The position numbers and the translations under genes were made by a program. The notes under the pieces are model-generated. The model did no database searches and had not been told where the DNA came from. It saw only the letters and a program-made list of their open reading frames with translations. From Rhodocyclales bacterium RIFCSPLOWO2_02_FULL_63_24 (GTDB lineage Bacteria > Pseudomonadota > Gammaproteobacteria > Burkholderiales > Rhodocyclaceae): a stretch of 57,598 nucleotides of DNA. Location of the stretch: the NCBI GenBank assembly GCA_001828935.1, contig MHZX01000065.1:1-57598 (forward strand), read 5' to 3'. Below are positions 15,044 to 57,530 of the stretch, piece after piece. Within the stretch, counting starts at the first letter, position 1. Each line of letters opens with the position of its first letter.

Positions 15044-15158
15044 GGATATCTCCTGCTCCGTATGCATTTGTGTTGCGTTTGTCTGCAAAAGTCCGGCCTC
15101 TTTTCGTTTTCTCGTTTCCTTGCAGCGCGTTTACTCGCGACAATGGTTTGTCGAACTA

Positions 15159-21303: not shown

Positions 21304-21308
21304 TTGGC

Positions 21309-42455: not shown

Positions 42456-44286
42456 GCAGCGCCTCGCGCCATTCCCAAATCGCTGCTTCCGCCTTGCGCC
42501 GGTAGGGATCGTCGGCCTTGGTCAGATGCAGGTAGGTTTCCATTGCGGCTATCGCGGCAGGCAACTCGTGCATGCCTTCCAGTGCGATGGCGAGTCCGTA
42601 ATAGGCATTGACCTGTCGTACGCGCAGGGCGGTTGCTCCCTCGAAGAAATCGTGCGCTTCGCGGAAGCGCTTCATGCCTATCAGCGCGAAACCGGCATTC
42701 ACGTAGGCCTCGGGCATGGCTGGAGACAACTGCAGGACACGGTGAAATGCGGTGAGGGCATGGTCGTACTGTCGGGCGTGGAGCATGACCAGCCCCTGCT
42801 GGAAACGAGTATTGATTTCTTTGAGCTTCATTTCCTGGACATGGGCTTCGGTGGCGAGCTTCTCGTTGTTACCGCCAGGCATGCGGTCGAGCAGGAGTCC
42901 GCCGCCGATGACCAGGGTCAGGGCCAGGACGATTGCCGGCAGGCGCAGGTCGCGCCGCGCTCCGGGTTTGCGCGGGCTCAGTGCTTCGAGCAGGCCGGCG
43001 GCGGTCAGCACCGCGTAGCCGGCGACCGCGACAAGGGCGAGGAAGCCGCCTATGCCGGCGGCACCCATGGTGGCGAAGTAGGCGGTGCTGTCCACGCCGA
43101 GGTCAGCATGGGTGGCTTTGCGTGGTACGCCCAGTTCGCCGGCAACGGCCAGTCCGGCGACCAGGCAGATTATGCCCAGACCATAGATGGAGGGAAGGCG
43201 CAAGCTGCGTGCGTCGGATGCAACGCCGAGGTCGACGCCAATGCGCCGCAGCCACAGCATATAGGCGAGCGTGATGGCGCCAACGGTACCGTGGTAATGG
43301 GCCGGCACGGCGAGCGATTCGCCACGGATATTGGCGCCCAGCAGACAGCCGGCCGCAAACAGGAACAGCGACAGCGCAAGGCCCAGTTCGTCGGCGTTCA
43401 GCCGACGATGGCGACCGACCCGCAGCAGACCGATCGCGAGGCCCGCCGCAAAGAGGAGCGGTGCCGGCCAGGAACCCCAGCGCATCAATTCCGTAAAGCC
43501 GTTGCGGTATTCGACCGTCCCGGGCCCATGCATCATTGCCAGTAAGGCACCGCCGGCAGCGGGCAGCAGCGTGCCGAGGATCAGCCAGGGCAGCAAGCGG
43601 CGCAGCCGCGGCGTGGTCTCCAGGGCCGCTTCGCCGAGCGCCGTCCAGGCTCCCATCAGCAGCAGCACATGCACGAACTGCAGGCTATGGCCGACGCCCC
43701 AGAGACGGTCATCGATGCCGATCTGGACGCCCGTGGGTGTCGCTGTTCCCGCCATGAAGCCCGTCACCAGTACGACAGCAGCAACGGCAAGGGCCATCAT
43801 GGCCGCACCAGCGGCAAGATGCAGCGTCGTCGGTGGCCGTCGGTGCCAGACCGCCAGTCCGGCTGCCGCGGCGATTCCGATGCCGAGCGCGAATGAAGCC
43901 AGCCCGGCCATGAACAATTCGTGGTCAAGCAGCGGTACGTAGTTGGCGAGCAGCGGCAGCGCCTGCTGCGAAAACCCGGATGCCACCATCGCCGCGCTGC
44001 CCAGGGCTGCCAGCCAGAAGGCCGGCCATCCAACATTGCCCCGGATGTCCCCGGAAAGTATCCAGATCGCCGCCGCCATCGATAGGAACCAGACCAGTAC
44101 CGCCAGGTTCACATGCAATACGAGGGCGGTACGGAACAAGCCGGCGCCCTGGCCGAGGAAAGGAGTACGCGCGACGACCAGGATCACCGCGAACATCGCG
44201 GACAACCCGAGGGCGGTCAGCCCGAGCGAGAACCAAGCCAATGCCAGGCGGCGGGTAACAGTCGGCGCTGGCAGCACGGCGCTCAT
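42442..44286 (-). CDS. Haem-copper-oxidase subunit I-like membrane protein fused to TPR domain
   Basis: 614 residues, about 12 transmembrane segments then, after about residue 475, a soluble TPR part (FQQGLVMLHARQYDHALTAF, NAGFALIGMKRFREAHDFFE). Histidine-bearing helices resemble cbb3/NorB-like subunit I: LHVNLAVLVWFLS, GVGHSLQFVHVLLLMGAW and AHYHGTVGAITLAYMLW. I cannot see the His-His pair expected for CuB in helix VII, so it may bind haem b without being an oxidase. Start MSAVLPAPTVTRRLALAWF overlaps the CcsA stop by ATGA. The position after ResB/CcsA in a cytochrome operon suggests a quinol/haem membrane subunit or a haem-export partner. Speculative beyond the family-level call. Confidence 0.75.
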   Translation of the reverse strand: MSAVLPAPTVTRRLALAWFSLGLTALGLSAMFAVILVVARTPFLGQGAGLFRTALVLHVNLAVLVWFLSMAAAIWILSGDIRGNVGWPAFWLAALGSAAMVASGFSQQALPLLANYVPLLDHELFMAGLASFALGIGIAAAAGLAVWHRRPPTTLHLAAGAAMMALAVAAVVLVTGFMAGTATPTGVQIGIDDRLWGVGHSLQFVHVLLLMGAWTALGEAALETTPRLRRLLPWLILGTLLPAAGGALLAMMHGPGTVEYRNGFTELMRWGSWPAPLLFAAGLAIGLLRVGRHRRLNADELGLALSLFLFAAGCLLGANIRGESLAVPAHYHGTVGAITLAYMLWLRRIGVDLGVASDARSLRLPSIYGLGIICLVAGLAVAGELGVPRKATHADLGVDSTAYFATMGAAGIGGFLALVAVAGYAVLTAAGLLEALSPRKPGARRDLRLPAIVLALTLVIGGGLLLDRMPGGNNEKLATEAHVQEMKLKEINTRFQQGLVMLHARQYDHALTAFHRVLQLSPAMPEAYVNAGFALIGMKRFREAHDFFEGATALRVRQVNAYYGLAIALEGMHELPAAIAAMETYLHLTKADDPYRRKAEAAIWEWREALRDKP

Positions 44287-45092
44287 ACGGCACCTTTGTG
44301 CGGCGTCGTCGAAATGAAAGGCACGCCGAAGAACGTCAGGAAGGCGACGATGAAAACTCCGACCACCAGCATGGCGCCGGTGCGCGGCGAGAGCTTGTAG
44401 GTCACGCGCGCATGCAGGGCGATGCCGAGTACCAGCCAGGTCAGGAACGCCCAGGTTTCCAGCGGGTCCCAGGCCCAGTAGCGACCCCATGCGTCCTGGG
44501 CCCAAATGGCGCCGGCGACCAGCATCAGCGACTCGAAGATGAAGCCGATCGCCATGCAGCGGTAAGCGAGATCGTCCAGACGCACATCCTCAGGCAGTCT
44601 TTCAAACCATCTCAGCCCGAGCGCAGTTCGCCGCGACAGTATGACGCCGGCGAGTCCGACGGCGACCAGTGTAGCGCCGAGGAACACTTTGCCGAAACCG
44701 ATATGGATGAAGAGCCAGACCGTGTGATAGCTGGAGGGCAGGCTGCCGTCGCCGGGGTCGGCCATCATGATCCAGCCCATCATGATGAACAGGATGGGCA
44801 TCACTACCGCGGCGCTACCGCGTATCGCCGGCAAGCGCCAGAAGGCGATGGCGAAGGCCAGCATCAGGCTCCAGATATTGCTGGAAAGAATCTCGAACAT
44901 CGTCACGTAGGGGCCGTGACCGAGGCGTTCCCAGCGTGTGGCGATGGACGCCGTGTGCAGCGCGAGGCCCGCTGCCATCAGCGTGAGCACCAGGCGTTCC
45001 GGCCGGCGGCGCCAGACCACCGAGAAGATCGCGGCAGAGCCGGCGACGACGTAAAGCACCAGGGCCGTCCAGAGCAGTTGCAGTTCAATCAT
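44283..45092 (-). CDS. ccsA: System II cytochrome c biogenesis protein CcsA/ResC
   Basis: 269 residues, about 8 transmembrane segments, with the tryptophan-rich haem-handling motif WAQDAWGRYWAWDPLETWAF and flanking histidines (RLGHGPYVTMFEILSSNIW; SYHTVWLFIHIGFGKVFLG). CcsA with CcsB/ResB moves haem across the inner membrane and attaches it to CXXCH motifs. It follows resB by 6 bp. A second, dedicated haem-attachment machinery beside System I genes (27877-32053) suggests it serves the large multihaem cytochromes of this operon. Confidence 0.92.
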   Translation of the reverse strand: MIELQLLWTALVLYVVAGSAAIFSVVWRRRPERLVLTLMAAGLALHTASIATRWERLGHGPYVTMFEILSSNIWSLMLAFAIAFWRLPAIRGSAAVVMPILFIMMGWIMMADPGDGSLPSSYHTVWLFIHIGFGKVFLGATLVAVGLAGVILSRRTALGLRWFERLPEDVRLDDLAYRCMAIGFIFESLMLVAGAIWAQDAWGRYWAWDPLETWAFLTWLVLGIALHARVTYKLSPRTGAMLVVGVFIVAFLTFFGVPFISTTPHKGAV

Positions 45093-45098
45093 CTTGGT

Positions 45099-46088
45099 CT
45101 ATGCATTCCAGGGTTTGTTCGCGAATTTGCTCCAAAAGTGCGCTCCGAGTGCCCCGATGGCGACAAGACAGGCGGCCAGCAGCCAGGGTATGGTCCAGTC
45201 GTAGAACACCGTGTAGCCCATCCAGCCACGCAGTCCCCGATATTCGAGACGGCCTTCGGGCAGATCGACAATGCCACCCGGCACCAGTTCCCAGCGCTGC
45301 GCGCCGATACGCAGCACGATCCTATGCTCCTTGGGCGGTCGAAATTCCGACCACCGGTCGGGGGCGAGGATGGTCTCCTTAAATTCCAGCATTGTCCAGA
45401 TGCGCAGCGCGGTTCCCGGTGGCGTCCACTCACGCGCCTGGCCGTGTTCATGCAAGGGGTAGGAAGGCAGGTGCACCGTGCCGATGCGTGCCTCGCCGCC
45501 ACCGGTCGGCTGCCAATTGAAAGACGGTGCAAAGCCTTTATTGCCTGTCGGATAGAAGCGATAGCCGGAAAGTATCAGTGGCTTTTGGTCGGTGATCTCT
45601 ATGCGGTGTGGCACTGCGCCGGGTCCGCGGATTTCGATCTGGTTGCGGATGCCCTGGCGCAATGGACCTGGCGCGTAGTCGATGCGAAAGCCAAGGTTGC
45701 CGAAGCGCAAGGCCCGCAATGTGTCGATCGGGTGGAAAGGCCCAGCGTCGGATTCCAGCAGCGTTCCGGTGAATTCCTCGCCTTCCGTGAGCTCCAGGCT
45801 GCCTTTTAAATAGCTGAGTCGGCTGGCGGCCAGCAGCAGGACCAGCGTCAGCAAGGCGAGATGAAAGACCAGCAACGCCGCCTGTCGGCGGAAACTGCGA
45901 TTGCCGAGAATCGCGGCCAGCAGATTGGCTGACAGCAGTCCCAAGGGCGCTGCGAGCAGGGCACTCGGCAGATCGTCGCGGACATAGATAAGGACGACCA
46001 GGGCCGCGAACAGGACCAGTGCGACCAGGGTCAGCTTGAGCGAAGCCAGCGACTCCAATAGCGACGTCAGTTGCTCGGGTTGCTGCAC
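45099..46088 (-). CDS. System II cytochrome c biogenesis protein ResB (short form)
   Basis: 329 residues, shorter than most ResB/CcsB proteins (450-700). Membrane segments near 17-36, 44-62 and 70-88, a periplasmic beta-rich domain with DQKPLILSGYRFYPTGNKGF and LRALRFGNLGFRIDYAPG, and a last helix WTIPWLLAACLVAIGALGAHFW. Short ResB/CcsA pairs accompany multihaem-cytochrome clusters in metal-reducing bacteria. Start overlaps the end of the 11-haem cytochrome gene by 22 bp, so it is translationally linked to its likely client. Confidence 0.85.
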   Translation of the reverse strand: MQQPEQLTSLLESLASLKLTLVALVLFAALVVLIYVRDDLPSALLAAPLGLLSANLLAAILGNRSFRRQAALLVFHLALLTLVLLLAASRLSYLKGSLELTEGEEFTGTLLESDAGPFHPIDTLRALRFGNLGFRIDYAPGPLRQGIRNQIEIRGPGAVPHRIEITDQKPLILSGYRFYPTGNKGFAPSFNWQPTGGGEARIGTVHLPSYPLHEHGQAREWTPPGTALRIWTMLEFKETILAPDRWSEFRPPKEHRIVLRIGAQRWELVPGGIVDLPEGRLEYRGLRGWMGYTVFYDWTIPWLLAACLVAIGALGAHFWSKFANKPWNA

Positions 46089-48673
46089 GTGTTGGTCATC
46101 CAGTTCTTGCCGGTGCCCGTCGTGTTCGAACCCGAGGCTCCGTCGGTACTGGTGATCAGGTTGGCGCCCGTCTTGCTACGCGAGCCGCAACTGGTGTCCG
46201 ACCAACCACCGCTGGTGGCGAAGGACGAAATCTTGTTCTTGGCATAGAGGTAGTAGGGCGGTTTGAGGTAGTGCGCGGCGTTGCCGTTGGTGGCGACTTC
46301 CTTGCTACTGCCGGCCCCGTGCCCGGCCTCCTCGCCGACGTCGTTCAGGTTGACCAGCAACGAACGGTTCTTCCAGCCGTGGGGAACGGCGACATGGCAC
46401 CAGACGCAGTTGATCTTGCCGATGCGGTCGATGTGGTAGGCATGCAGGTTGCCTTTGCCGCCGCCGGAAAAACCGGAACTGCTGGTCGGGTTGTGACACT
46501 TGAGACAGAGCAGGTTGGCGGTGCCTGTATTCATGCCGGCACCCCAGACGCCTTTGAGAATGAACGGGTTCCCCGAGCCGTGCGGACCCCAGGCCTTGCC
46601 AGTTTCAGGAATGACGTTGTTTGCGGACGTGGTGACGGCGGAACCGTGGCAATCGCTGCAATACATGGTCTGGGTACCGACCGCATTGCTCCACGGCAAC
46701 TTGAATGCGTTGGTGGCCGTGATATTGCGTTTCGTGGCCGTGCGGCCGGTGGGACCCATGACCGGATGCCAGGAACGGTGGTTCTTGTTGTTGGCGTTGG
46801 CATCGACCGCGCCGCCGTCGGCGCCCATGTTGAAGGTGGACGATTCGTCGGCATGGGAGGCAGGCGCCTGGAATTCCTTGGCCTGGTCGGTGTACTGGGT
46901 CAGCGCATTGGTGCCCGACGGCGTGAGGCCCTTGGTGTTGTTGGCGTCGAGGTTGGGCGGGGTGCTGCCGTAGCCGTAGCCCGAATGGCATTTCAAGCAG
47001 ACCTGATACTCGCGCGTGACGTAGGTTTTGGTATCGGCATTGGAGTCGTTGGGTACGCTGTCGGTACCCGGATCGCCGCGCCGCACGGTGTAACTGGTCG
47101 CGGCCGTGTGGAACGAACAGCACGTGTAGCCGGGCTCGACGCCCCAGCTGCCGCGCAGCGCGCCCGAGGCGACGTTGGTGTGGGTATAGCCCGAGGCGTT
47201 GGTGTGCTTGTGCGCGGCCGAGGCGTCCGGCGTTCCGCTGATGCTGCCGGCGTTGCCGTAGAACAGCTGGAACTTCGCCACCCGGTGCGGGTTGTGGCAA
47301 TCCGAGCATTCGACGTGGCGGTTGTTGGCATTGCCATTACCGAGTTGCGTACGGCTTTCAATCAGGTCGGCGCCGCACTTGTTGGCGGCGCCGGTGCAGT
47401 CGTTGTAGGTGTCGTTGAAGTTGCCGCCAACATCGTGTACTTCAGTGCCGCCGGCCGGCTGGTCCACGTTGCGGATGCGCATGCGGTAGGTCAGTGCGAA
47501 ATCCTGTTTGACGTTCGGCGGGTTGCTGGATGCGGAGTTGAGGATGCTGTTGGTCGTGTCGTTGTGACACTGGTAGCAGGTCTCTTCCAGCGCCGCGGAG
47601 CCGCCGGCCTTGAAGCCGCCCAGGTAGAGCGAGGTTGCCGGGCTGGCATCAGTACCTTCGCGCAGCAGCCGGCGCGAACCCGAGACTGTATGGGTGTCGT
47701 GGCAGTTGAGACAGGCGGCCTGCCACACGGCGATACCGCTAGGGAATTCGCGCGTGTCGGCAGCCGCGGTCTTGTAGGTCTGGGTCGCGACGTTCGAGTT
47801 GGCGTGCGCGGAATAGGCCCACGAGTTGCCGCCCACCCCTTGCATGCCCTTGTCGTGGCAGGACAGGCAAACGATGTCGTTGCCGGCGACGTAGGTGCTG
47901 GTCGGTTGCGCCTTCTGGACGCGATTGCCGCGCAGGAACTTGATGTTGCGTTCGGCTGTGAGATCGGTCTCGCGGATGTGCGGGTCATGGCAGGTCGTGC
48001 ATTGAACCTGTCCGGCACTGCCTGAGCCTGTCGGTTCCAGCGGCAGCAATGGCTTGTAGGAGTCCTGAGCGGAGCGCACACCGAACACCGTGCCCCATCG
48101 GTTGAGCGGACTGGCGCTCGGTCGACGCAACTCGCCGTCGCGGTCGGACAAGGCCTGGTCGAAGGTGACCGAGATCGGGTGGTCGTTGGTAAGGTCGGTG
48201 CCCAGCAAACGCGTATAGCCGGTACTTGAGCCGCTGCCCGCCGGCATGGTGACCTGGGTGCCGCCGCCTATGGTGACGTTCTGCTGTCCCTGCAACACGC
48301 GAACGCTGCCTAGCGCCATGACGCCGTCGTGGCAGGACAGGCAAAGCTTGGAACTGCCCAGCGGTTGACCGGCCGAGACCCCCTGGATGGTGGCGGCATC
48401 GAGCGAGGACGACGTATAGGCCGTATAGGTGGTATTGGCGAGCGTTTTGTTCCACAGCGGCGCGCTTTGCGAAGTATCCGAGCCGTGCGGCGTGTGGCAA
48501 AAGACGCAAATTTGACTCTCGGTGGTCGAATGGGTCGTACCGGTGCCCGAAGATGAGAGGTTGTGCTTGGTTGCGCTGATCCTGGATTCGCGTGCGGCCT
48601 GGCTCTCGCTCGCCAGCAGCATCGCCATCAGCATCAGCGAAGCGCCAAGGAGCCTACCAGTCTTCATTGTCAT
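46067..48673 (-). CDS. Secreted 11-haem c-type cytochrome
   Basis: 868 residues with signal peptide MTMKTGRLLGASLMLMAMLL. Eleven CXXCH motifs: CVFCH, CLSCH, CTTCH, CLSCH, CLNCH, CYQCH, CSDCH, CLKCH, CSDCH, CLKCH and CVWCH. A twelfth site appears degenerate (CCSFH, DNA 47108-47122), where the second cysteine is phenylalanine. Long low-complexity Ser/Thr/Gly/Asn-rich linkers separate haem sites, typical of exposed surface cytochromes. The start follows GGGAGG by 5 nt. It overlaps the NHL lipoprotein gene by 20 bp and resB by 22 bp. Predicted to be the extracellular terminus of the conduit. No known omc/mtr orthologue is assignable by eye. Confidence 0.92.
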   Translation of the reverse strand: MTMKTGRLLGASLMLMAMLLASESQAARESRISATKHNLSSSGTGTTHSTTESQICVFCHTPHGSDTSQSAPLWNKTLANTTYTAYTSSSLDAATIQGVSAGQPLGSSKLCLSCHDGVMALGSVRVLQGQQNVTIGGGTQVTMPAGSGSSTGYTRLLGTDLTNDHPISVTFDQALSDRDGELRRPSASPLNRWGTVFGVRSAQDSYKPLLPLEPTGSGSAGQVQCTTCHDPHIRETDLTAERNIKFLRGNRVQKAQPTSTYVAGNDIVCLSCHDKGMQGVGGNSWAYSAHANSNVATQTYKTAAADTREFPSGIAVWQAACLNCHDTHTVSGSRRLLREGTDASPATSLYLGGFKAGGSAALEETCYQCHNDTTNSILNSASSNPPNVKQDFALTYRMRIRNVDQPAGGTEVHDVGGNFNDTYNDCTGAANKCGADLIESRTQLGNGNANNRHVECSDCHNPHRVAKFQLFYGNAGSISGTPDASAAHKHTNASGYTHTNVASGALRGSWGVEPGYTCCSFHTAATSYTVRRGDPGTDSVPNDSNADTKTYVTREYQVCLKCHSGYGYGSTPPNLDANNTKGLTPSGTNALTQYTDQAKEFQAPASHADESSTFNMGADGGAVDANANNKNHRSWHPVMGPTGRTATKRNITATNAFKLPWSNAVGTQTMYCSDCHGSAVTTSANNVIPETGKAWGPHGSGNPFILKGVWGAGMNTGTANLLCLKCHNPTSSSGFSGGGKGNLHAYHIDRIGKINCVWCHVAVPHGWKNRSLLVNLNDVGEEAGHGAGSSKEVATNGNAAHYLKPPYYLYAKNKISSFATSGGWSDTSCGSRSKTGANLITSTDGASGSNTTGTGKNWMTNTCSNPSN

Positions 48674-49754
48674 TGTCCCCTCCCAGGAACTGGAATACCG
48701 CGACGCGTCCGTTCAGCATGTCCGCCACGAATACGCGGTTGCGTGCATCCACCCAGATGCCGGCAGGCAGGTGAAAGTTCCCCGCACCTTGGCCGACTCC
48801 TCCGATGGGGAGCAGAAACTCGCCTCTACGGTTATATACGAGCAGATAGTCATGATAGGACTCGATCACGTAGACATTGTGCTCGCTGTCCGTGGCGACC
48901 CCCTTGGGACGCACCAGATTGCCCATTTGCAGCCCGCGCTTGCCGAGCGAGCCGAGATAGCGTCCGGTCGGCGTCGACATCACTTGGACCCTTGCGTTGA
49001 GCGTATCGCTGACATAGAGTTTTTCATGGCGCACGGCGATATGGGTGGGATAGTTGAATTGTCCCGGTCCTTCACCCTGTTCGCCCAGTGTTGAAAGCAA
49101 TTTTCCTTCCAGATCGAATATCTTGATCTGGTGTGCCTGTGTGTCGGCGACGAACAGGCGCTTGGTTTTTGGCTCATAGGCCAGTCCGGTTGGCCGCCGC
49201 AACATCCCTTTGCCAATGGGTTCCTTGGTGTTGCCATCTCGGTCGAAATGGGCAATCAGGGCAAGTTCGGCATCGGCGACGAAAACATGTCCCTCGGGAC
49301 CGATGGCGATTCCGACCGGGGCAATTAAGTCGATGGTCCCGGTTGCCTTGCGCCAAACTGATAGTGTTCCTTGCTTTTCGTCGAAGGCAAAGACGCCGGC
49401 ATTTCCCATGTCGGTGACCAGAATACGGCCCGACTCGTCTACGGCACCTGCCTGCGGCCTGTCCAGCAGCATGGGGCGTTCTTCGCCAATGATGATGTCG
49501 AAGAAGCGGGCAATGATGCTTTTCGCCGCGTCGGATTTGCGCTCGGGCCTGACGAAGTTGTTTTCTCCCGTGAGTTCGCCAACGTAGAAGTAGCGGGGTA
49601 TCTCACCATCTTTCTCTGGCGGCCACATCAGGCGCTTGCTCTCGGTGCTGCGATCAAGCCCGAGTCGGAAAACAGCTCTTTCCGGCTCCCCGGCACAGCC
49701 GCCGAGCACCAGAACGAGCGACAACACGACCGCGAGACGGCTGCTTCGGCTCAC
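48654..49754 (-). CDS. NHL-repeat beta-propeller lipoprotein, copy 1
   Basis: 366 residues; lipobox LVLGGCAGEP near residue 20. Six-bladed NHL propeller with repeats such as GRILVTDMGNAGVFAFDE, HVFVADAELALIAHFDRDG, RLFVADTQAHQIKIFDLEG, LYVSDTLNARVQVMSTPTG, NVYVIESYHDYLLVYNRRG and RVFVADMLNGRVAVFQFLGG. NHL proteins accompany multihaem cytochromes in Geobacter-type outer-membrane clusters, with unproven roles in assembly or protein contact. The ATG overlaps the end of the next NHL gene (ATGA) and the stop overlaps the 11-haem cytochrome. Probably outer-membrane anchored in the periplasm or surface. Confidence 0.92.
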   Translation of the reverse strand: MSRSSRLAVVLSLVLVLGGCAGEPERAVFRLGLDRSTESKRLMWPPEKDGEIPRYFYVGELTGENNFVRPERKSDAAKSIIARFFDIIIGEERPMLLDRPQAGAVDESGRILVTDMGNAGVFAFDEKQGTLSVWRKATGTIDLIAPVGIAIGPEGHVFVADAELALIAHFDRDGNTKEPIGKGMLRRPTGLAYEPKTKRLFVADTQAHQIKIFDLEGKLLSTLGEQGEGPGQFNYPTHIAVRHEKLYVSDTLNARVQVMSTPTGRYLGSLGKRGLQMGNLVRPKGVATDSEHNVYVIESYHDYLLVYNRRGEFLLPIGGVGQGAGNFHLPAGIWVDARNRVFVADMLNGRVAVFQFLGGDNDNEDW

Positions 49755-50692
49755 CGCGCTCGCCTCGATTTGACTCGGAATGCTGAGACCCGATGTCCGG
49801 CTCCGTCGGCGATCAGGATCATGCCGCCTGTTGCCGCAAGGCTTTCTGGCGTCACCATACCCAATGCGGCGGCGGACATCGCTTCGATACCTTCCTCATG
49901 GACGAGCGCAATGCTGCGGTCGAATCCGTCCAGCACGAAGACGTTCGGTCCGTCGACGCCAAGCGAAAGCGGCTGGCGCAGCTTGCCGGAGCCAAAGCGC
50001 CGCCCCTGGCGGCCTTGTATCCATTCGACGACGCAGCCGCAACGGGTGCTGGCGACGAATAGCCCTCGGCCGTCGGTGGCAATCGGGCCAGCTTCGTCCA
50101 GACGCATGAAATCTATGGCAAATTGGCCCAAGGGCTGAATCTCGTCGATCACAAGGTGGGCAGAGTCTACCGCGTAGCCCTTGCCGGTCAAGGAATCGAC
50201 TGTGAAGTTGTCGTAACGGCTGGTCGCTTGGCGCGGACGCACCGCGGGCAGTTGTTTGCCGCTACGTGCGTAGCGGCGAATTTCCGAGGCGAACGGATCG
50301 AGGACGTAGATCGAACCATCGGGGCCGACTTGCAGCTTGGTGGCTCGGCTGATGTTGGCTACCGGCATCACGGCCATGGCGTCCAGGGTGCGGTCGTAGC
50401 GATAAAGGCGCGAGGTGCCGGCGTCAGCGATATAGATGTCGTTGAAGCTCGCCGCTACGGCAACCGGAAATACCAGCGGGACATAGGCGCCGATGGCGTC
50501 CGCTGTAGACCCACCGGCGATGTCCACGCGTGTGACAAGACGTGCGCCGGCAATGCTGAACAGCGGTTCGAGGATGGATTCACGACGACGCTCGGCCCCT
50601 GTCGCGCAGCCCGCACACAGGGCTACGAGCAGGCAGACGGCGGCCTTTAGCAGGCCGCGCCGGCTACCAGCGCCCAGGGCCACTCGTCTCAT
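49751..50692 (-). CDS. NHL-like beta-propeller lipoprotein, copy 2
   Basis: 313 residues. Start MRRVALGAGSRRGLLKAAVC overlaps the upstream c7 gene by 29 bp; lipobox VALCAGCATG. Blades are degenerate NHL type: NDIYIADAGTSRLYRYDRT, GSIYVLDPFASEIRRYARSG, LFVASTRCGCVVEWIQG, NVFVLDGFDRSIALVHEEG and MILIADGAGHRVSAFRVKSR. The CGC cysteines in the middle blade are unusual and could be a disulfide or metal site. ATGA overlap with the following NHL gene. Together with copy 1 this gives two tandem propellers, matching the two propellers in the other cytochrome module. Confidence 0.82.
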   Translation of the reverse strand: MRRVALGAGSRRGLLKAAVCLLVALCAGCATGAERRRESILEPLFSIAGARLVTRVDIAGGSTADAIGAYVPLVFPVAVAASFNDIYIADAGTSRLYRYDRTLDAMAVMPVANISRATKLQVGPDGSIYVLDPFASEIRRYARSGKQLPAVRPRQATSRYDNFTVDSLTGKGYAVDSAHLVIDEIQPLGQFAIDFMRLDEAGPIATDGRGLFVASTRCGCVVEWIQGRQGRRFGSGKLRQPLSLGVDGPNVFVLDGFDRSIALVHEEGIEAMSAAALGMVTPESLAATGGMILIADGAGHRVSAFRVKSRRAR

Positions 50693-51038
50693 GACCGCCG
50701 ACAATGCCGGTCGGCAAGCCTGGCTTGCCAGAGTGGCAGAGGTCGCAACGGTCGGGACTCCAGGCGATATCGCCATTGTGGCAGGCACCGCAGAATTTTC
50801 CGTCGGCGATATCGTTCATGGTGACGTCGTTCGATCCTACGCGCATTTTGAAACCCAGTTCGGCGTGACAGACGCGGCACTGGAAGCGGATGCGATGGAA
50901 CCAGTGCGGGAAGACCACCGGCCGCATGCCTTCTTTTTCCGCTCGCCGATTTAGCACGACATCGGCATACTCGGCTGCGGCCGGTACCGCGGTGAAGACC
51001 ACGGCAATAGCGCAGAGCATACCGATGGAAAATTTCAT
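50664..51038 (-). CDS. Small periplasmic trihaem cytochrome c7-like, copy 1
   Basis: 124 residues. Signal peptide MKFSIGMLCAIAVVFTAVPA; mature domain with three CXXCH: CRVCH, CGACH and CDLCH. Distal-histidine segment FPHWFHRIRFQ. Very similar to the 53507-53932 protein (PHWFHR-RF-C-VCH, GKFCGACHNGDIAWS-type blocks), so the two are duplicates. The c7 fold makes a compact periplasmic electron shuttle; in Geobacter, PpcA-type c7 carries electrons to outer-membrane conduits. ATGA overlap with the trihaem gene before it. Confidence 0.92.
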   Translation of the reverse strand: MKFSIGMLCAIAVVFTAVPAAAEYADVVLNRRAEKEGMRPVVFPHWFHRIRFQCRVCHAELGFKMRVGSNDVTMNDIADGKFCGACHNGDIAWSPDRCDLCHSGKPGLPTGIVGGHETSGPGRW

Positions 51039-51667
51039 TTTGTTTCCGGAATCCCATGCGCCGGAGGCATTCCGGGCGGAATCACAGGCTTGGCCTGGCC
51101 TGGCCGCATGACGCTATGGCAACGGCCGCACTCCGTCAGCGGGAAGGATACCGCGCCGTGGCAAATTCCGCATTGTTCGCCGGCCAGAATCTGGAACATG
51201 GACAGCTTTGTTGCTCCGGTCCGCTTTTCGAACACGCCATCGTGGCAGTTCGAGCAATCAAGCCATTCAGTATGTCGTTTGTGCGGGAACAGGACGATGG
51301 GCATGCTGCCCTTGAGGTCGAGAAGAATGTCCTGGTCGAGAATGTTTGGCTGCACGCCCGGCTTTAGGCTGGGGCGGGGCTTGATTATTCCGGTTTGAAT
51401 GGCCTCGATCCAACGCACCATATTGCCGGTCGTGTCGCGCGGCAGTTTGGAGAGCGCCTCCCGTGGCTCCTGAAGCTGTTTGATGGCCGGCCCCTTGCGG
51501 TCGTGGATGCCATCCTTGCGCAATGTGCTCCATTCGGCCTGGGCAAACGCAACGCCGGCACAGCAGAGCAGCGCGGCCAGCGCTGCCAAGCCATGCCGAA
51601 ACTTAGCCAGGAATGTAAATCCCTGCGCCCCGAATTGCACGTACCAGTGCAGTAGTCGATTCCTCAA
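51035..51667 (-). CDS. Periplasmic trihaem cytochrome with N-terminal extension
   Basis: Up to 210 residues. C-terminal trihaem domain: CSNCH, CGICH, CGRCH, preceded by FPHKRHTEWLD. The central segment MVRWIEAIQTGIIKPRPSLK and NILDQDILLDLKGSMPIVL parallels the 19499-20125 protein. The start is unclear: the frame is open to 51667 (TTG), overlapping the previous gene by 65 bp, with possible non-ATG starts at 51640 (GTG) and 51589 (TTG); no good ATG exists. The hydrophobic HGLAALAALLCCAGVAFA is the likely signal core. Stop overlaps the next c7 by ATGA. Confidence 0.85.
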   Translation of the reverse strand: MRNRLLHWYVQFGAQGFTFLAKFRHGLAALAALLCCAGVAFAQAEWSTLRKDGIHDRKGPAIKQLQEPREALSKLPRDTTGNMVRWIEAIQTGIIKPRPSLKPGVQPNILDQDILLDLKGSMPIVLFPHKRHTEWLDCSNCHDGVFEKRTGATKLSMFQILAGEQCGICHGAVSFPLTECGRCHSVMRPGQAKPVIPPGMPPAHGIPETK

Positions 51668-52499
51668 GCAGCTTCACCCCGGTCGTGTAGTCCTTGCCAT
51701 TGGCCGCAGCCTCGGCTTGGGCGCGCAACTCCTTGGCCTTGGCGATGAATCCCTGCACCATGCTATCCGCCCGTTTCTCGGACAGTAGCACTTCGATCAA
51801 CATCTGGTGGGTATTGTTGCGGTCGATCTCATACTGATACTCCTCTTCCTTGCTGGCGAAGTTGAGCGAGCGTACCAGAGTGTCGCCGCTGCGCAGGCCA
51901 CTTATGCCGGCTTTGGCGACCAGATAGGCGCGATCAAGTGCGCTGCGACCTTCCTTGTAGCGGCCTGTCTGGGCGAGACTCGCACCTTCTGCGACGCCTT
52001 TCTCGATCTGGGCGACTGTTTCGCTCACTCCTCTGGCGGCAGTGCCTTTTTCGTTGGCAACTCGCTTGTACGCGCCGAGCAGGGCATTTACGCTGTCGAG
52101 GCGAGCGCGGTAGTCATTCTCCAGCTTCTTTGCCGTGACTTCCTCCGGGGCAGCCAGACGTACTGCGTCGAAGAACATCGCGCGGACGTCGGTAAGCAGT
52201 TGCGAGGCCTTTGGCAAATCGCCGGCGGTAAGCGCCGCCTGGGCAGACTTGTAGAGTTCACGCGCCTTCTGGCGCTTGTCCTGCGCTTCAGGAGCCTTGC
52301 TCGAATCGATCTGGCGCGCCGCTGAGGAGGTCTCGATCAACTTGCCAACCGACTCCATGTTGAAGCTCAGCGATTCCTTGTCGATTTTCGCTGCCTGCAA
52401 GCGGGTAGCCGCACTGCTTTGTTCGCCCTGTGGCACCTGAGCCTGTGCGGAGTTGCCGATGGCGACGATGGCGGCGGCTATCAATACATTCCTGAACAT
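51603..52499 (-). CDS. Periplasmic helical protein of unknown function (paralogue of the 14165-15043 gene)
   Basis: 298 residues, signal peptide MFRNVLIAAAIVAIGNSAQA, AAGGA ribosome site 7 nt upstream. Helical throughout; no haem motif or enzyme signature. Segments GISGLRSGDTLVRSLNFAS, YQYEIDRNNTHQMLIEVLLS and DYTTGVKLLEESTTALVRAI match those in the first copy. The family is unknown to me. Its position between two cytochrome genes inside the operon implies a role specific to this electron-transfer module, such as haem-protein scaffold or chaperone. The end overlaps the open frame of the next trihaem gene. Confidence 0.8.
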   Translation of the reverse strand: MFRNVLIAAAIVAIGNSAQAQVPQGEQSSAATRLQAAKIDKESLSFNMESVGKLIETSSAARQIDSSKAPEAQDKRQKARELYKSAQAALTAGDLPKASQLLTDVRAMFFDAVRLAAPEEVTAKKLENDYRARLDSVNALLGAYKRVANEKGTAARGVSETVAQIEKGVAEGASLAQTGRYKEGRSALDRAYLVAKAGISGLRSGDTLVRSLNFASKEEEYQYEIDRNNTHQMLIEVLLSEKRADSMVQGFIAKAKELRAQAEAAANGKDYTTGVKLLEESTTALVRAIRGAGIYIPG

Positions 52500-52509
52500 A
52501 GTTGTTTCC

Positions 52510-53496
52510 TTACTTGGCCACACTGGCCGCAGCTTGTGCCGGGCGAGCGAGATCCTTTTTCTTGGAATGGCACAACCGGCATTCCGAAACCGGGAACGCG
52601 ACTTTGCCGTGACAGACGCCGCATTTCTCGCCGAGCAGAATTGCGGCCATGCTGATCGCGTTGGCGCCTTTCTGGGGCACAAAGATGGCCGGATGGCAGT
52701 TCGAGCAGTCGAGCCATTCGGTGTGCTGTTTGTGCGGATAGACCACGTCAGGCATGGAGCCCTTCACTTCGCGCACGATGTTGAGGTCCATGACCACCGG
52801 CTCGGCTTTCGGGTCGGTTCGGTCCCAGCGAGGATTGATTTTCTTCGTGCCAATCGCCTCGACCCAGTTCACACGATTGCCGGCGAGACTCTTGGGCAAT
52901 CCGGCATAGGCGGTGAGGGGGGGCAGCAAAGCGTGCGTGCCATCGTTGGCGGGGTCATGAATGCCATCCTCGGGCGGCGGCGGGTTGCGTTTGCCCAATG
53001 GCTTGAGGAGCCGGTTGAAAGCGTTTACGTCGCCAACTGGCACGGCTTCCGCCATGGCGGCCGCCGCCGTTGGCGTCGGTTCCGCCTTGTCGACCTTGGG
53101 CGTGGACGTTGCAACCTTGGGCTCAGGCTTCGGCTCTTCCTTGGCTACGGGATTTTGTGGCGGAGTGGCGGTCGGCTTGGCTGCGGTCTTTACGGCGGCA
53201 AGCATGTAGTCCACCGCTGCTTTGACCTCGGCGTCGGAGTAGCTTGGATTTCCGCCTTTGGCCGGCATGCCCTTGGGTGTGCCTTTAAGCGCACTGCCGT
53301 AGAGGCGGCCGGTACCGCCAGCGATGCGTGGGCTCCAGTCGCCGGCATTGCCGTATTTGGGTGCGCCGGCGATACCGGTAGCGTGGCAGACGGCGCAGGT
53401 CTTGCCATAAACATCCTTGCCCGACTTTTGCGCCAAGGCCGGAGTCACGAGTACCGATACGGCGAGCGACAGGGTAATGAGGCTATGCAGTTTCAT
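52510..53496 (-). CDS. Tetrahaem fusion: cytochrome c5-type domain plus trihaem c7 domain
   Basis: 328 residues, signal peptide MKLHSLITLSLAVSVLVTPA and GGAGG ribosome site 5 nt upstream. N-terminal class I domain: CAVCHATGIAG and a GMPAKGGNPSYSDAEVKAAV region with the axial Met, cytochrome c5 style. A proline/lysine/threonine-rich linker follows (about residues 115-165). The C-terminal domain has the same trihaem architecture as 19499-20125 and 51035-51667: YPHKQHTEWLDCSNCHP, CGVCH, CRLCH. Linking an electron-acceptor class I domain to a c7 domain would wire soluble donors to the conduit. The 13 bp to the next helical gene suggest coupling. Confidence 0.9.
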   Translation of the reverse strand: MKLHSLITLSLAVSVLVTPALAQKSGKDVYGKTCAVCHATGIAGAPKYGNAGDWSPRIAGGTGRLYGSALKGTPKGMPAKGGNPSYSDAEVKAAVDYMLAAVKTAAKPTATPPQNPVAKEEPKPEPKVATSTPKVDKAEPTPTAAAAMAEAVPVGDVNAFNRLLKPLGKRNPPPPEDGIHDPANDGTHALLPPLTAYAGLPKSLAGNRVNWVEAIGTKKINPRWDRTDPKAEPVVMDLNIVREVKGSMPDVVYPHKQHTEWLDCSNCHPAIFVPQKGANAISMAAILLGEKCGVCHGKVAFPVSECRLCHSKKKDLARPAQAAASVAK

Positions 53497-53506
53497 GTCG
53501 GCCTCC

Positions 53507-53932
53507 TCACTTATTCGCCGGCGTGGTTGCCGGTCGCGCAAGTTTCTGGATCGTGCTCTCATGTACCTGGGTCTTGGTACCGGGCTTGGCTGAGTGGCAC
53601 AAGTTGCAATTCTCGACCGACCACGCTATCTCGCCGTTGTGGCAGGCGCCACAATATTGGCCGTCGATGATTTTCACCATGTTGATCTCGTTTCCGCCGG
53701 CCTGGAACTTGAAGCCGATATCGGCGTGGCAGACTTTGCAACGGAAGCGGACGCGATGAAACCAGTGCGGGAAGATCACAGGGCGCATGCCGGCGCCGTC
53801 GGAGTAGTTGTTGATTACGACGTCGCCGTACTCAGCGTGTGCTTCAGGCAGGTCAACAAAAAGCATGGCCAAGACAGCCATCAGGCAGGCCATCAAGCGG
53901 CCGCCTTTCCTCATTCCGTAGAGTTTTTCCAT
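53507..53932 (-). CDS. Small periplasmic trihaem cytochrome c7-like, copy 2
   Basis: 141 residues, start MEKLYGMRKGGRLMACLMAV with AGGA 7 nt upstream. Signal peptide, then three CXXCH: CKVCH, CGACH and CNLCH, with distal-histidine segment FPHWFHRVRFR. Nearly the same scaffold as 50664-51038 (INMVKIIDGQYCGACHNGEI versus VTMNDIADGKFCGACHNGDI). It lies 58 bp after the barrel gene, so it is the first cytochrome of the operon and a candidate for the periplasmic cytochrome that docks on the barrel. A longer open frame upstream overlaps the barrel gene and is less likely. Confidence 0.92.
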   Translation of the reverse strand: MEKLYGMRKGGRLMACLMAVLAMLFVDLPEAHAEYGDVVINNYSDGAGMRPVIFPHWFHRVRFRCKVCHADIGFKFQAGGNEINMVKIIDGQYCGACHNGEIAWSVENCNLCHSAKPGTKTQVHESTIQKLARPATTPANK

Positions 53933-53990
53933 TACCGGTTCCTTGAAGGGGCAAATTTGCCGTGGAGTCGTGGCTTCATATGCTGCTCGA

Positions 53991-56393
53991 TCAGAAGTCG
54001 CCAAGCTCGCGGCCCATTGTAAAAAACAATGAAGCATTTTCCTTGCCATTCTGCGTCGCAAACGAGCCGGTGCCTCTGAATATCAGCCGTCCCAGTCGAT
54101 AATCTATGTTTTGCTGCAGAACATTGCCCGTTTGCCAAGCCAGCGCATTCGGGTCGCCGCTAATCAGCCTGAGGTTGGTCTGGCTAGCGTTGGCTTGAAA
54201 AGTGGCAGTGTAAATCAGGTTGGCAATGTCAAAGGGACTGCGGTGCACATAGCTCACCTGGCCCGATCCGCTCAGCGTACTGCTACCGTTGCCGGTGGTC
54301 TCGCCGGCCACTGGACTGGCTGACTGCGGTGCCTGCGGAGTCGCCAGTTGTTGGCTATAGACCACATTCACGCTGGCCGTCAGCGCTGAGCGGCGGCCGA
54401 GTTGAGTTTGCAGATTACCTTGGGTCGACAGGCTGCGGAAATGGCTGGAGAAGCTGCCGGTACTCAGCGAGTCGGATGCTGTGGCGCTCAATGTGCCCAA
54501 TGTGCGTTCGCCCAGGCCAAGGCGCCATGAGGCCCCTCCAGTATGGGTAAGAACCCCGTTTTGCCCTGACGAACTGTTGTTGGAAAGCGAGAAGCTTTGT
54601 CCTGCCGTGAGAGTGAGCGCATTGATGTCGCTAAACGTAATGTTGCGCAGCAGCGAGTGGTTGGCTTGCCCGGAGATGCTGCGGTTCGCTGCACCGCCGC
54701 TTATGACTTGATTGGTAATCCCGCCGCCAGTCCCCCAGTTATAGGAATAATCACCAAAAATGAGAGGGTTTCCCAAATACGAGACAGATGCGTTTTGTGT
54801 GGACGATATCTGGCTTGTACCGCTGTTTGCGCTTTGGGTCAGGGTCAGGCCAGCCAGTCCCGTGAGGTTTTGGGAGAAGCGGTAACTGGCATTGGCGTGG
54901 CCGTTAAGGTTGGTCAGGTCGGCTTTGGCTGTCTCGGTCGTCGTGTTCGAGTGCAGGAATGAGCCGCCGCCGACGATGGTCAGCGGCAAATCCTCATCCG
55001 GTATCCAGGTGGCCGACGAAGTGGCCTGCATGACCTGATTGTTGTTCATGGAGAGGCCGCCTCCAGTCTGCAGGCGAATCTGGTTGTTCGAGTAGGTGAC
55101 CGACGACGCCACGGACAGTTCTTCATCGGCGCGCCATGTGTGCGCGGCGTTCAGACTGAACAGGTTTGATCCTTGTCCGCCAATGTCGCCGAGATTGCGC
55201 GAATAACGGGCATTTGCGCTGAGTCCGTGATCGGCAATGGTGGTCGAGAAGTTTCCCTGGAACGCATCGACGACACTTCGGAGAGTTTTGGTGGTGACAA
55301 TGCTGCGGTCTGCGCTGCCCGAATAATTTTCCCGTCCGACCTCTGGACGATAGCTCTGCCGGGCGCCCATGCGCAGTGAGGTGTTCTGCTCGCTCTGGGC
55401 GTTGGCGCTGGCGCGACTGTCGCTGGTCTGGATGTAGGCCTGGAAAGGGAAGCGGCTCTGGGGAAACAGGCTGAGGTTGCCGCCATAGGTCATCGAGGTA
55501 CTGCGTCCTGCGCTGGTGCTGGAGTCGCCGCCGCTTTGCTTCGATGTCCCGGTGAGCAGGCCGATATCGCCGGACACCTGTGCGTACCAGGGCTGGTAGA
55601 TGTAGCTTGAGGCACGCAGAGTTAAAGTCTGGGTTTCGCTGAAGGTGCTGTTGCCTCCCGGACTGCCGTTCCAGTTGTAGTTGCTGGTGGTGCTGCCGCC
55701 CCAGCGAATCGGTGGAATCGTCCAACCGCCGATGACCGATGTCAGGTCGGGCAGGGTCTCCGGCACCGATGCCGCCGTCTTGGATCCGGTGGGCGCAGGG
55801 CCGGGGCGTACGGCTTCGAAAGCGACGGGCGCCTCGGGTTGCGCGCGTCCTGGCGTTTCCGGTGCTGGCGCTGCGGGTCGTGCGCCTGTCCCCACGGTGG
55901 AAAAAGTTACCGGTTCTTCGGGGCCTTCGATCCTTTGCCGGGCCGGTGTCGTTGGTGTCGGGCGCGAGGGCCGCTTGTTTGGCTGTGGCTCATCGTTGGT
56001 TGCCACGGACAAGCGGGAAGTCATGCGCAGGCGGGAAGATTCCTCGGCAAGTCTGGATTGAGCCGTGCGTCCGCGCGGACGCGGTTTGGGCTTTGACAAC
56101 GATCGAGCGGGACGCAACAGTGGGGGAGGCAAGTCGTCGGTTGCGGCCACGCTTGACAATTCCCGAGTCAGGCCGCGCAATTCCGCTTTGGACGCTGATT
56201 TCGCGGGGCGTTTCTTGGGGGCGGACAAGAACTGCGCAGGGCGCAAGATGCTTGGTACAACATCGCTGTTCGGGGGGTGGCCACCTTCCTCGCGCGCAAG
56301 CGCGATTTCGGCGGCGCAGGCCGTCCCGATCAACAGCGTAAGGCGGCGAAACTTCCTGTCCTGCAGGCGGCGGGGGTATTCAAAATACCTCAT
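53991..56393 (-). CDS. Outer-membrane beta-barrel of MtrB-like/porin-cytochrome type with duplicated basic N-terminal region
   Basis: 800 residues. Signal peptide MRYFEYPRRLQDRKFRRLTL to about residue 33. Residues about 45-135 contain two imperfect copies of a basic proline/arginine-rich unit (ILRPAQFLSAPKKRPAKSAS and LLRPARSLSKPKPRPRGRTA), followed by a low-complexity Pro/Ala stretch to about 220. From about 225 the sequence is all alternating beta-strands with Asn/Ser/Thr-rich turns (YYN-type NYNWNGSPGG, YGGNLSLFPQSRFPFQ, GASWRLGLGERTLGTL) to a terminal phenylalanine (MGRELGDF). No haem motifs. This fits the barrel of a porin-cytochrome conduit that insulates a cytochrome across the outer membrane. 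Clear orthology to MtrB/OmbB is not provable by eye. Confidence 0.82.
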   Translation of the reverse strand: MRYFEYPRRLQDRKFRRLTLLIGTACAAEIALAREEGGHPPNSDVVPSILRPAQFLSAPKKRPAKSASKAELRGLTRELSSVAATDDLPPPLLRPARSLSKPKPRPRGRTAQSRLAEESSRLRMTSRLSVATNDEPQPNKRPSRPTPTTPARQRIEGPEEPVTFSTVGTGARPAAPAPETPGRAQPEAPVAFEAVRPGPAPTGSKTAASVPETLPDLTSVIGGWTIPPIRWGGSTTSNYNWNGSPGGNSTFSETQTLTLRASSYIYQPWYAQVSGDIGLLTGTSKQSGGDSSTSAGRSTSMTYGGNLSLFPQSRFPFQAYIQTSDSRASANAQSEQNTSLRMGARQSYRPEVGRENYSGSADRSIVTTKTLRSVVDAFQGNFSTTIADHGLSANARYSRNLGDIGGQGSNLFSLNAAHTWRADEELSVASSVTYSNNQIRLQTGGGLSMNNNQVMQATSSATWIPDEDLPLTIVGGGSFLHSNTTTETAKADLTNLNGHANASYRFSQNLTGLAGLTLTQSANSGTSQISSTQNASVSYLGNPLIFGDYSYNWGTGGGITNQVISGGAANRSISGQANHSLLRNITFSDINALTLTAGQSFSLSNNSSSGQNGVLTHTGGASWRLGLGERTLGTLSATASDSLSTGSFSSHFRSLSTQGNLQTQLGRRSALTASVNVVYSQQLATPQAPQSASPVAGETTGNGSSTLSGSGQVSYVHRSPFDIANLIYTATFQANASQTNLRLISGDPNALAWQTGNVLQQNIDYRLGRLIFRGTGSFATQNGKENASLFFTMGRELGDF

Positions 56394-56528
56394 GCCGGAT
56401 CGGTACAGGGCTCATGATTTCCGGAGGTCTTCGCCTTTATCATACCTGCCGTTATAGCCCGCCGAAGGCTTCGGCGAAGTGAGGAACAGAACTCGATTCT
56501 GGGGGTTCCTAAAACCTGAGACCTGTCC
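56394..56528. other. Intergenic gap with hairpins between PPIase and barrel genes
   Basis: 135 bp. On the minus strand an AGGAA-CCCC-CAGAA-TCGAG-TTCTG-TTCCT bulged hairpin is followed by a GCCGAAG-GC-TTCGGC-type hairpin and a -10-like TATGAT near 56443. They could be an internal promoter or processing signals separating PPIase from the cytochrome genes. No clear terminator U-tract is present. Confidence 0.4.
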
Positions 56529-57530
56529 TCATTTGGTGGCTGCGGCTGGGGCCGGCGGAACTTGTTCGACCAGCTTGATTACGGCGGTCTTGCGCAGGCC
56601 GGAGAGGAAGCTTTGCCAAGCCTGATTGCTGAGGTCGCGCTTGAGCAGTTCGCGTGCGCGCGTTGCCACATCTTGATAGGCCATTACCTGAGGTGGGACG
56701 CGCTCGTCGAGGCGAAAAATGGCCACGCCTTCCAGGACGTCGATCGCATCGCCGACGGCGCCGAGCGGGCGCTGATCGAGCTGGGCCTGGACGGGTTCGG
56801 GAATCATGCCGCGATGCAGGTAGCCCATATCGCCGCCTTGCTCGGCACTGCGGTCATGCGAGTGCAAGCGGGCCAGTTCCTCGAATTTGCCTCCGTCGGC
56901 GCGCAAGTTGGTGACGATACGGGCGGCTTCCGCACGAGCCGCGTCGCGCACGGTTTTCGGTGCCGACGGGTCGACTTTGAGCAGAATGGTGTGCAGGCGC
57001 AGCTTTTCCGGCTGGGTGAAAAGCTCGATGCGTGTCTTATAGAACTCGCGTACGGCTTCGTCGCCGGGTTCGGCAATCGTATGGCCGATCGCTTCCATCT
57101 GGCGCAGCAGATCCTGTTCCGTAAGCTGCTGCTTGAGCCCCGGCAGCATGGCTTCGCGGCTCTTCTGCCACGCTGCGCTCGTAGCGTAGCGCGCTTCGTA
57201 TTCGGCGATGGTCTGGGCAATGCGCGGCTCATCGGCGGCAAGCCCGCGCCGTTTGGCTTCGTCGAGCAGGAGCACGCGGTCCACCAGACGGTCGCTGACT
57301 TCCTTCTTGGCTGGGGCGAGTTGATCGTCGGGAATTTGTCCATGGTAGAACTTCTGTCGCAGGTAGCCGTTGTAGGCACCGTAAAATTCCTTTTGAGTGA
57401 TCGGCTTGCCATTGACCGTGGCGTAAAGTGGTTCGGGTGCGCTCGTTGGCGTGCCTTCGGCGCCGGCTGCCAAGGTCGGGACGAGGAAGCCCGAGATGGC
57501 TGAAACGAGGACAACGATGGTCTTGTTCAT
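56529..57530 (-). CDS. Parvulin-type peptidyl-prolyl cis-trans isomerase (PpiC/SurA-like)
   Basis: 333 residues. Start MNKTIVVLVSAISGFLVP with GGAG 9 nt upstream; signal peptide ends near AAGAEG. Helical chaperone N-domain (PITQKEFYGAYNGYLRQKFY, KKEVSDRLVDRVLLLDEAKR) and a PpiC domain with LRLHTILLKVDPSAPKTV, FEELARLHSHDRSAEQGGD, MGYLHRGMIPEPVQAQL. It helps fold periplasmic or outer-membrane proteins; PPIases recur in metal-reduction cytochrome clusters. It leads the operon, immediately before the barrel gene. The rest of the window (57531-57598) shows only its upstream region. Confidence 0.92.
   Translation of the reverse strand: MNKTIVVLVSAISGFLVPTLAAGAEGTPTSAPEPLYATVNGKPITQKEFYGAYNGYLRQKFYHGQIPDDQLAPAKKEVSDRLVDRVLLLDEAKRRGLAADEPRIAQTIAEYEARYATSAAWQKSREAMLPGLKQQLTEQDLLRQMEAIGHTIAEPGDEAVREFYKTRIELFTQPEKLRLHTILLKVDPSAPKTVRDAARAEAARIVTNLRADGGKFEELARLHSHDRSAEQGGDMGYLHRGMIPEPVQAQLDQRPLGAVGDAIDVLEGVAIFRLDERVPPQVMAYQDVATRARELLKRDLSNQAWQSFLSGLRKTAVIKLVEQVPPAPAAATK

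Follow-up and report, generated by a model that had tools for sequence, protein, structure and literature searches.

A probable Uet-type porin-cytochrome gene cluster in a Rhodocyclales bacterium and the sequence relation of its UetA family to OmcE

Introduction

The undecaheme electron transfer (Uet) cluster, uetABCDEFGHIJ, was reportedly described by Eddie et al. in 2022. In the portions of the literature available to us, a Uet complex is attributed to Tenderiales and Gallionella and comprises the undecaheme cytochrome UetJ, the extracellular tetrahaem cytochrome UetA and three predicted periplasmic trihaem cytochromes, UetDEG, together with the PPIase UetB, the barrel UetC and the NHL proteins UetHI (PMC10734462). 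The gene string uetABCDEFGHIJ is given in an accessible part of PMC12575090, and UetJ and its porin are noted for the Sphaerotilus-Leptothrix group in a part of PMC13386937. For Tenderia growing on a cathode, the excerpts of one study indicate that three trihaem genes were among the most highly expressed and apparently co-transcribed with a gene annotated as TPR, that the changes in trihaem expression were not significant and that the undecaheme gene exhibited no differential expression between two electrode potentials (PMC5371394). Judging by the locus tags given there, the Tenderia genes of interest fall in the range Tel_16515-Tel_16545.

The passage of electrons across the outer membrane in neutrophilic iron oxidisers and cathode bacteria has been poorly tested, and in the same partial sources Uet is put forward as predicted from genomic and expression data. 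In this study, a cluster of cytochrome genes was analysed in a 57,598-nucleotide stretch of DNA from Rhodocyclales bacterium RIFCSPLOWO2_02_FULL_63_24 (the window). An earlier note on this DNA had proposed an undescribed porin-cytochrome operon with an unrecognised architecture. A porin-cytochrome type was the best reading of the cluster, but the claim that it was undescribed was not upheld, since gene content and order correspond to Uet.

Results

Analysis of the ORFs and of the family matches agreed with the chain of minus-strand genes proposed earlier, which runs from a PPIase through a barrel, cytochromes and NHL proteins to an 11-haem cytochrome and ResB/CcsA (Table 1). In the ORF listing, the genes of the chain extended from 57593 down to 42442 and were closely spaced or overlapping. 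The ResB and CcsA genes (44283-46088) were located just downstream of uetJ and reached below the coordinate at which the earlier note had started the cluster. A recount of haem motifs reproduced the 24 CXXCH motifs claimed for five cytochromes, distributed as 11 + 3 + 3 + 4 + 3 over five minus-strand ORFs. The absence of a decahaem cytochrome of the MtrA/OmaB type, with several small trihaem cytochromes instead, was likewise borne out for the cluster.

Table 1. Features of the cluster in the window, in minus-strand order
Feature	Position	Strand	Remarks
UetB-like periplasmic PPIase	56529..57530	-	SurA_N and PPIC-type rotamase; likely start 57530
UetC-like outer-membrane beta-barrel, 800 aa, without haem motif	53991..56393	-	AlphaFold2 model of residues 205-800, ~28 strands
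UetD-like trihaem c7 cytochrome (D)	53507..53932	-	G2 paralogue
UetE-like cytochrome (E), 4 CXXCH	52510..53496	-	N-terminal class-I (c5/cbb3-like) monohaem domain and trihaem c7 domain
UetF-like all-helical protein (F)	51603..52499	-	without Pfam match
UetG-like trihaem cytochrome (G1)	51035..51667	-	start uncertain; E paralogue
Second c7 trihaem cytochrome (G2)	50664..51038	-	D paralogue
UetH/I-like NHL-type protein, probable lipoprotein	49751..50692	-	lipobox read by eye
UetH/I-like NHL beta-propeller, probable lipoprotein	48654..49754	-	lipobox read by eye
UetJ, 868 aa, 11 CXXCH	46067..48673	-	signal-peptide-like start; N-terminal ~220 residues match OmcE (7tfs)
ResB-like cytochrome c maturation protein (System II)	45099..46088	-	family match above cut-off
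CcsA-like cytochrome c assembly protein (System II)	44283..45092	-	family match above cut-off
Membrane protein with C-terminal TPR	42442..44286	-	in about half of relatives

Family searches backed the gene labels with the exception of the barrel and helical protein F, for which there was no relevant family match. Cytochrome_C7 and nanowire_3heme were above the cut-off in all four small cytochromes, and TIGR04257 produced four matches above the cut-off in the cluster. The class-I domain in the N terminus of E was detected with PF13442, both the SurA_N and rotamase domains were found in the PPIase, and NHL was above the cut-off in both NHL proteins (25.6 versus 20 bits for the weaker one). A scan of the cluster detected terminator-like sites at a level not above that of shuffled sequences (12 versus a mean of 14.0) and promoter-like sites at a level below it (2 versus a mean of 3.7).

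Comparison with the published descriptions indicated that, as judged by gene content and order, this is very probably a Uet-type porin-cytochrome cluster for extracellular electron transfer. The proposal of an architecture not previously recognised was rejected, as content and order match the Uet cluster of "Ca. Tenderia electrophaga", for which Gallionella and members of the Leptothrix group are also on record, in so far as the accessible parts of the sources set it out (PMC10734462, PMC12575090).

The window covers positions 1-57598 of a contig of 95,972 bases (C65), and the cluster continues past its edge. A search of the same genome with the tetrahaem protein of locus L031, where it is encoded upstream of the PPIase gene, detected a match on the same strand at C65:57626-58414 with 58% identity. 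The corresponding uetA ORF (C65:57569-58555) had three visible CXXCH motifs, with a run of N at the 3' end where the fourth would fall. A second tetrahaem protein was detected by own-genome search upstream of uetA at C65:59905-60603, and the window end was followed by a run of N, then by uetA, a gene for an NHL protein and that for the second tetrahaem cytochrome. The apparent absence of an outer cytochrome was due to the window ending just before uetA, and a cluster lacking an outer tetrahaem partner was rejected, as UetA and the second tetrahaem cytochrome sit further along the same contig.

On the other strand beyond uetA were two ORFs with three CXXCH motifs each, which on sequence reading appear to encode class I proteins, followed by a protein labelled in the same way as of PAS/GGDEF/EAL type. 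The divergent pair corresponds to L114 4724-6934 (+), and an opposite-strand ORF with three CXXCH motifs occurred within the first 5 kb in 34 of 47 complete loci. The second tetrahaem protein corresponds to L114 3905-4939 (-) and had 28 related loci.

The earlier note had proposed a survey of gene neighbourhoods. Scanning genome contigs with protein D yielded 155 relatives, of which 80 loci were retained, many of them cut by contig ends. Over all 80 loci, the barrel was present in 72, the PPIase in 61, F in 73 and UetJ in 52. Complete loci (n = 47) were those with at least 7.5 kb before and at least 9.5 kb after D; in both sets of counts, an ORF took the label of the window protein that it matched best in BLAST, and genes diverged beyond the 1e-4 limit were counted as absent. 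The barrel, F and the first NHL protein were each detected in 45 of these 47 loci, the PPIase, G1 and G2 in 44, the tetrahaem protein in 42, ResB in 37, CcsA in 35, the second NHL protein in 32 and the TPR protein in 23. E had four CXXCH motifs in 33 loci, and UetJ was present in 42, each time with exactly 11 CXXCH. The order PPIase-barrel-D-E-NHL-UetJ was kept in 41 of the 42 loci having all six genes (the exception being L088), and this recurrence indicated that the chain is not due to chance. Barrel matches were found in 29 of 369 sampled genomes of the same class, including the genome of the window itself.

Five complete loci had no UetJ in the DNA examined (L061, L062, L068, L075 and L103). 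Genome searches detected a homologue in the genomes of L061, L068 and L075 (in several pieces in the last), and L062 and L103 were different neighbourhoods without a barrel. An apparent lack of UetJ in the Aromatoleum/Azoarcus loci (L061, L067-L069 and L073) was rejected, as all five genomes (L118-L122, L125-L128) carry a homologue outside the loci examined; four of the five carry two, on one or two contigs. In L061, L067, L068 and L073, D-E-F was placed after ResB/CcsA rather than after the barrel, and L069 was cut after D. L091, from a Gallionellaceae MAG, had two UetJ-like ORFs of 11 CXXCH, at 14735 and 17876, the sole such case among the 47 complete loci. The UetJ of L075 (Piscinibacter, G375:C1:151486-154039) was in several pieces, one with an internal stop, and looks broken or mis-sequenced. 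L062 (15788 onwards) had homologues of D and E and an open frame of 1,532 aa with 30 CXXCH motifs; barrel and NHL genes were undetected there.

Among the named carriers were several Aromatoleum strains (L067-L069 and L073) as well as Dechloromonas hankyongensis XY25 (L040). An undecaheme cytochrome of Ca. Dechloromonas occultata, a manganese reducer, is said to have been reported by Szeinbaum in 2020. The full Uet gene order was present in Rhodocyclales bacterium GT-UBC (L032), which we take to be this organism. The undecaheme cytochrome of Ca. D. occultata is cited alongside that of Tenderiales in an available part of PMC13264449.

The haem-free barrel of 800 residues described earlier contained no CXXCH and produced a confident barrel model. 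AlphaFold2 prediction for residues 205-800 with 86 sequences had a mean pLDDT of 91.9 and a pTM of 0.71, and 28 long strands were counted from the listed strands. The alignment (A1) comprised the window barrel and 85 of 90 non-window barrels, with L010, L015, L051, L074 and L078 left out. Family profiles for MtrB, which the earlier note had suggested as a check of the barrel, were not matched: the window barrel had no relevant Pfam or NCBIfam match, either to PF11854 or to TIGR03509, and PF11854 was unmatched in 10 scanned relatives of the 85 aligned, with one sub-threshold OMP_b-brl match. An MtrB-family barrel was rejected on the basis of these searches of the window barrel and 10 relatives. 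A barrel profile detected only weak, generic matches among PDB sequences (best E, 0.011). Foldseek searches of the PDB detected generic barrels, with 6r2q_B of the Mtr complex, presumably MtrB, at rank 7 by E-value, behind transporters of vitamin B12 and similar. The 6r2q_B TM-scores were the highest among the 50 matches listed, at 0.40/0.38, but are too low for the same fold.

The lack of a relevant family match, including the lack of one to MtrB in the relatives scanned, and the higher Foldseek ranking of vitamin B12 and other TonB-dependent transporters would be expected of an unrelated outer-membrane porin that merely sits among cytochrome genes and has no interface with haem proteins. We consider this very unlikely. 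The barrel stays between the PPIase and the trihaem genes (45 of 47 loci, with the order kept in 41 of 42), a TonB plug domain was unmatched in the Pfam search of the window barrel, and 6r2q_B had the top TM-scores among the 50 matches listed, low as these are.

Identity between D and G2 was 54% (114 columns), that between E and G1 was 48% (147 columns), and these values indicated that the order D-E-F-G1-G2 consists of two paralogous pairs around F. F itself was predicted to be all-helical (AlphaFold2 pLDDT, 88.8) and had no PDB structure match at E <= 0.001 and no Pfam match. Its alignment comprised the window protein and 64 of 97 listed sequences, after removal of second copies with low scores and of some nearly identical sequences. 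The Tenderia counterpart of F is annotated as TPR in the accessible part of PMC5371394; this label was not confirmed for F by either a Pfam or a PDB match. Elsewhere in the window (14165-15088 and 19499-22379), another F-like helical protein, 28% identical to F, was detected less than 5 kb from another trihaem protein of E/G1 type, which had 44% identity to G1. This proximity suggests that F perhaps serves trihaem cytochromes, and the two may also occur as a set in settings other than Uet. The second trihaem protein adjoins two Reg_prop beta-propeller proteins.

A profile of the UetA family was compared with PDB sequences and matched 7tfs (OmcE) at an E-value of 1.2e-40 and 9yuq, an entry with 16 chains of one 218-aa cytochrome, at 3.3e-39. 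Matches to OmcS (0.0075) and MtrA (6r2q_A, 0.0095) were marginal, and a single UetA relative matched 7tfs at 1.3e-31. On these profile matches, members of the UetA family are homologues of OmcE, which is a subunit of Geobacter nanowires. In the UetA alignment (A4; 45 of 55 UetA ORFs and that of the window genome), exactly four non-CXXCH histidines, one per haem, were invariant (positions 40, 66, 170 and 247), and all four align with OmcE histidines. These are candidate distal haem ligands, one of which may cross a subunit boundary; in OmcE, the ligand of haem 2 is supplied by the neighbouring subunit, as described in the available part of PMC12203936. A motif count over the 55 UetA ORFs detected the N-terminal histidine in 55, HTPH in 55 and DHP in 54.

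The second tetrahaem protein was also related to OmcE (2e-25) but had only three invariant non-CXXCH histidines for its four haems (alignment A5, 21 of 28 sequences). HTPH was absent in all 28 sequences, DHP was present in 26, and the N-terminal pattern was present in 27, the 28th differing after the histidine. Counts for both tetrahaem proteins refer to ORFs from L030-L109 passing length, spacing and haem filters. The N-terminal ~220 residues of UetJ represent the same domain, with a match to 7tfs at 1.7e-23, and of 51 UetJ relatives all had the N-terminal histidine and 50 had HTPH. No published link between UetA and OmcE was found in the literature joining OmcE with undecaheme, Tenderia or Dechloromonas, which was covered through parts of PMC13264449, PMC12203936, PMC12575090, PMC5566968 and PMC12806980; the original description of Uet was outside this scope, and a printed link may exist.

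It is possible, if somewhat improbable, that UetA polymerises as an OmcE-type filament and that UetJ starts or ends the wire, with the PPIase chaperoning UetA, the barrel secreting or anchoring it and the NHL propellers shaping it. Such an arrangement would follow the logic of the Geobacter osc operon, in which OscH is a prolyl isomerase, OscEFG a channel and OscD a beta-propeller protein. For the OmcS wires of that operon, the accessible text proposes that OscH contributes to folding, OscEFG to secretion and OscD to morphology (PMC13194489). Consistent with a filament are these roles, the strong matches of the UetA profile to 7tfs and 9yuq, the four invariant histidines for four haems, the OmcE-like N terminus of UetJ and the ligation of OmcE haem 2 from a neighbouring subunit. 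Against it, being homologous to OmcE is no proof that UetA polymerises, sequence models fail to identify authentic nanowires across genera according to a partial source (PMC12977616), and a role of porin complexes in cytochrome secretion is called speculative in the available part of a review (PMC12307469).

Discussion

The cluster was read as a porin-cytochrome conduit because its parts match those published, uetA lies just past the window edge, the six-gene order recurs in nearly all testable relatives and the barrel model is confident; the MtrB/PioB-family barrel with its DmsE-type partner and the RuBisCO gene elsewhere in the genome also fit this reading. Less favourable to it are the count of four trihaem proteins where three are listed, and the undecaheme gene of Tenderia that was not differentially expressed between electrode potentials, together with the non-significant trihaem changes there. 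From the gene identities and conservation observed, we infer the following locations, contacts and flow of electrons. Three outer cytochromes, namely, UetA, UetJ and the second OmcE-like tetrahaem protein, would exchange electrons with a mineral, an electrode or a partner outside the cell, and the large UetC barrel would bring haem proteins from the two sides of the outer membrane into contact. D, E, G1 and G2 may form a periplasmic relay organised by helical protein F, and electrons would then pass between the outside substrate and the inner membrane by way of UetA/second tetrahaem protein/UetJ, the barrel and the trihaem relay. The PPIase may aid folding of the barrel or cytochromes, the NHL proteins may hold the surface assembly, and ResB/CcsA would attach haem.

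The direction of electron flow is a separate matter. A contig of the same genome (C58; locus L116) carries in a row an MtrB/PioB-family barrel (458.6 bits versus PF11854), a 10-haem cytochrome of DmsE/MtrA type and a monohaem cytochrome, and a gene for the RuBisCO large subunit is also present in the genome. RuBisCO and the MtrAB-type pair fit electron uptake, whereas the undecaheme relative in a manganese reducer may point the other way.

The conduit and wire readings are compatible. A broader proposal, which we regard as tentative and rather unlikely as a whole, is that Uet clusters in many Beta- and Gammaproteobacteria are self-contained nanowire systems, with a UetA filament, UetJ as cap or base, a channel of ~28 strands, a chaperone, surface propellers and a trihaem relay; the second tetrahaem protein, with three of the four distal histidines, would be the wire end or a substrate-facing subunit. 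With the link to OmcE, a loosely defined conduit gains a definite prediction, namely, that iron oxidisers and Rhodocyclales form conducting filaments, and the cultured carriers D. hankyongensis XY25 and the Aromatoleum strains make this prediction testable.

A barrel and multihaem cytochromes are common to MtrCAB/MtoAB, PCC3, PCC4 and this cluster. Family searches indicated that the cluster differs from MtrCAB/MtoAB in having neither an MtrA-type decahaem cytochrome nor an MtrB-family barrel. The cytochromes of PCC3 are very rich in haem, and those of PCC4, with 4, 5 and 10 haems, are periplasmic, none being extracellular, as stated in the part of PMC5566968 available. The likeness of the Geobacter osc operon to Uet is one of published roles, not of sequences, and its wire protein OmcS is hexahaem and, in the accessible part of PMC12203936, phylogenetically unrelated to OmcE, whereas UetA is tetrahaem and OmcE-like. 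Haem positions and candidate distal histidine positions are shared between the sequences of OmcE (7tfs) and the UetA family, but UetA exceeds OmcE in length and carries an insertion between haems 2 and 3, and filament formation, known for OmcE, would be a prediction for UetA. In the case of Ca. D. occultata, the undecaheme cytochrome comes from a manganese reducer, and the physiological direction may be opposite.

The 11-haem UetJ, the trihaem cytochromes UetDEG (predicted to be periplasmic), the PPIase UetB, the barrel UetC, the NHL proteins UetHI and the tetrahaem UetA (predicted to be extracellular) are common to this cluster and to Uet, a likeness to the Tenderia genes as judged by content and order as published. 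The cluster is a further member of an already described kind and not a new architecture; in its own right it is an ordinary one, to which the relation of UetA to OmcE, the predicted barrel fold and the paralogous trihaem pairs are useful additions. Compared with Uet as set out in the accessible sources, it has four trihaem proteins rather than three, an extra class-I haem domain in E and a second OmcE-like tetrahaem gene upstream of uetA.
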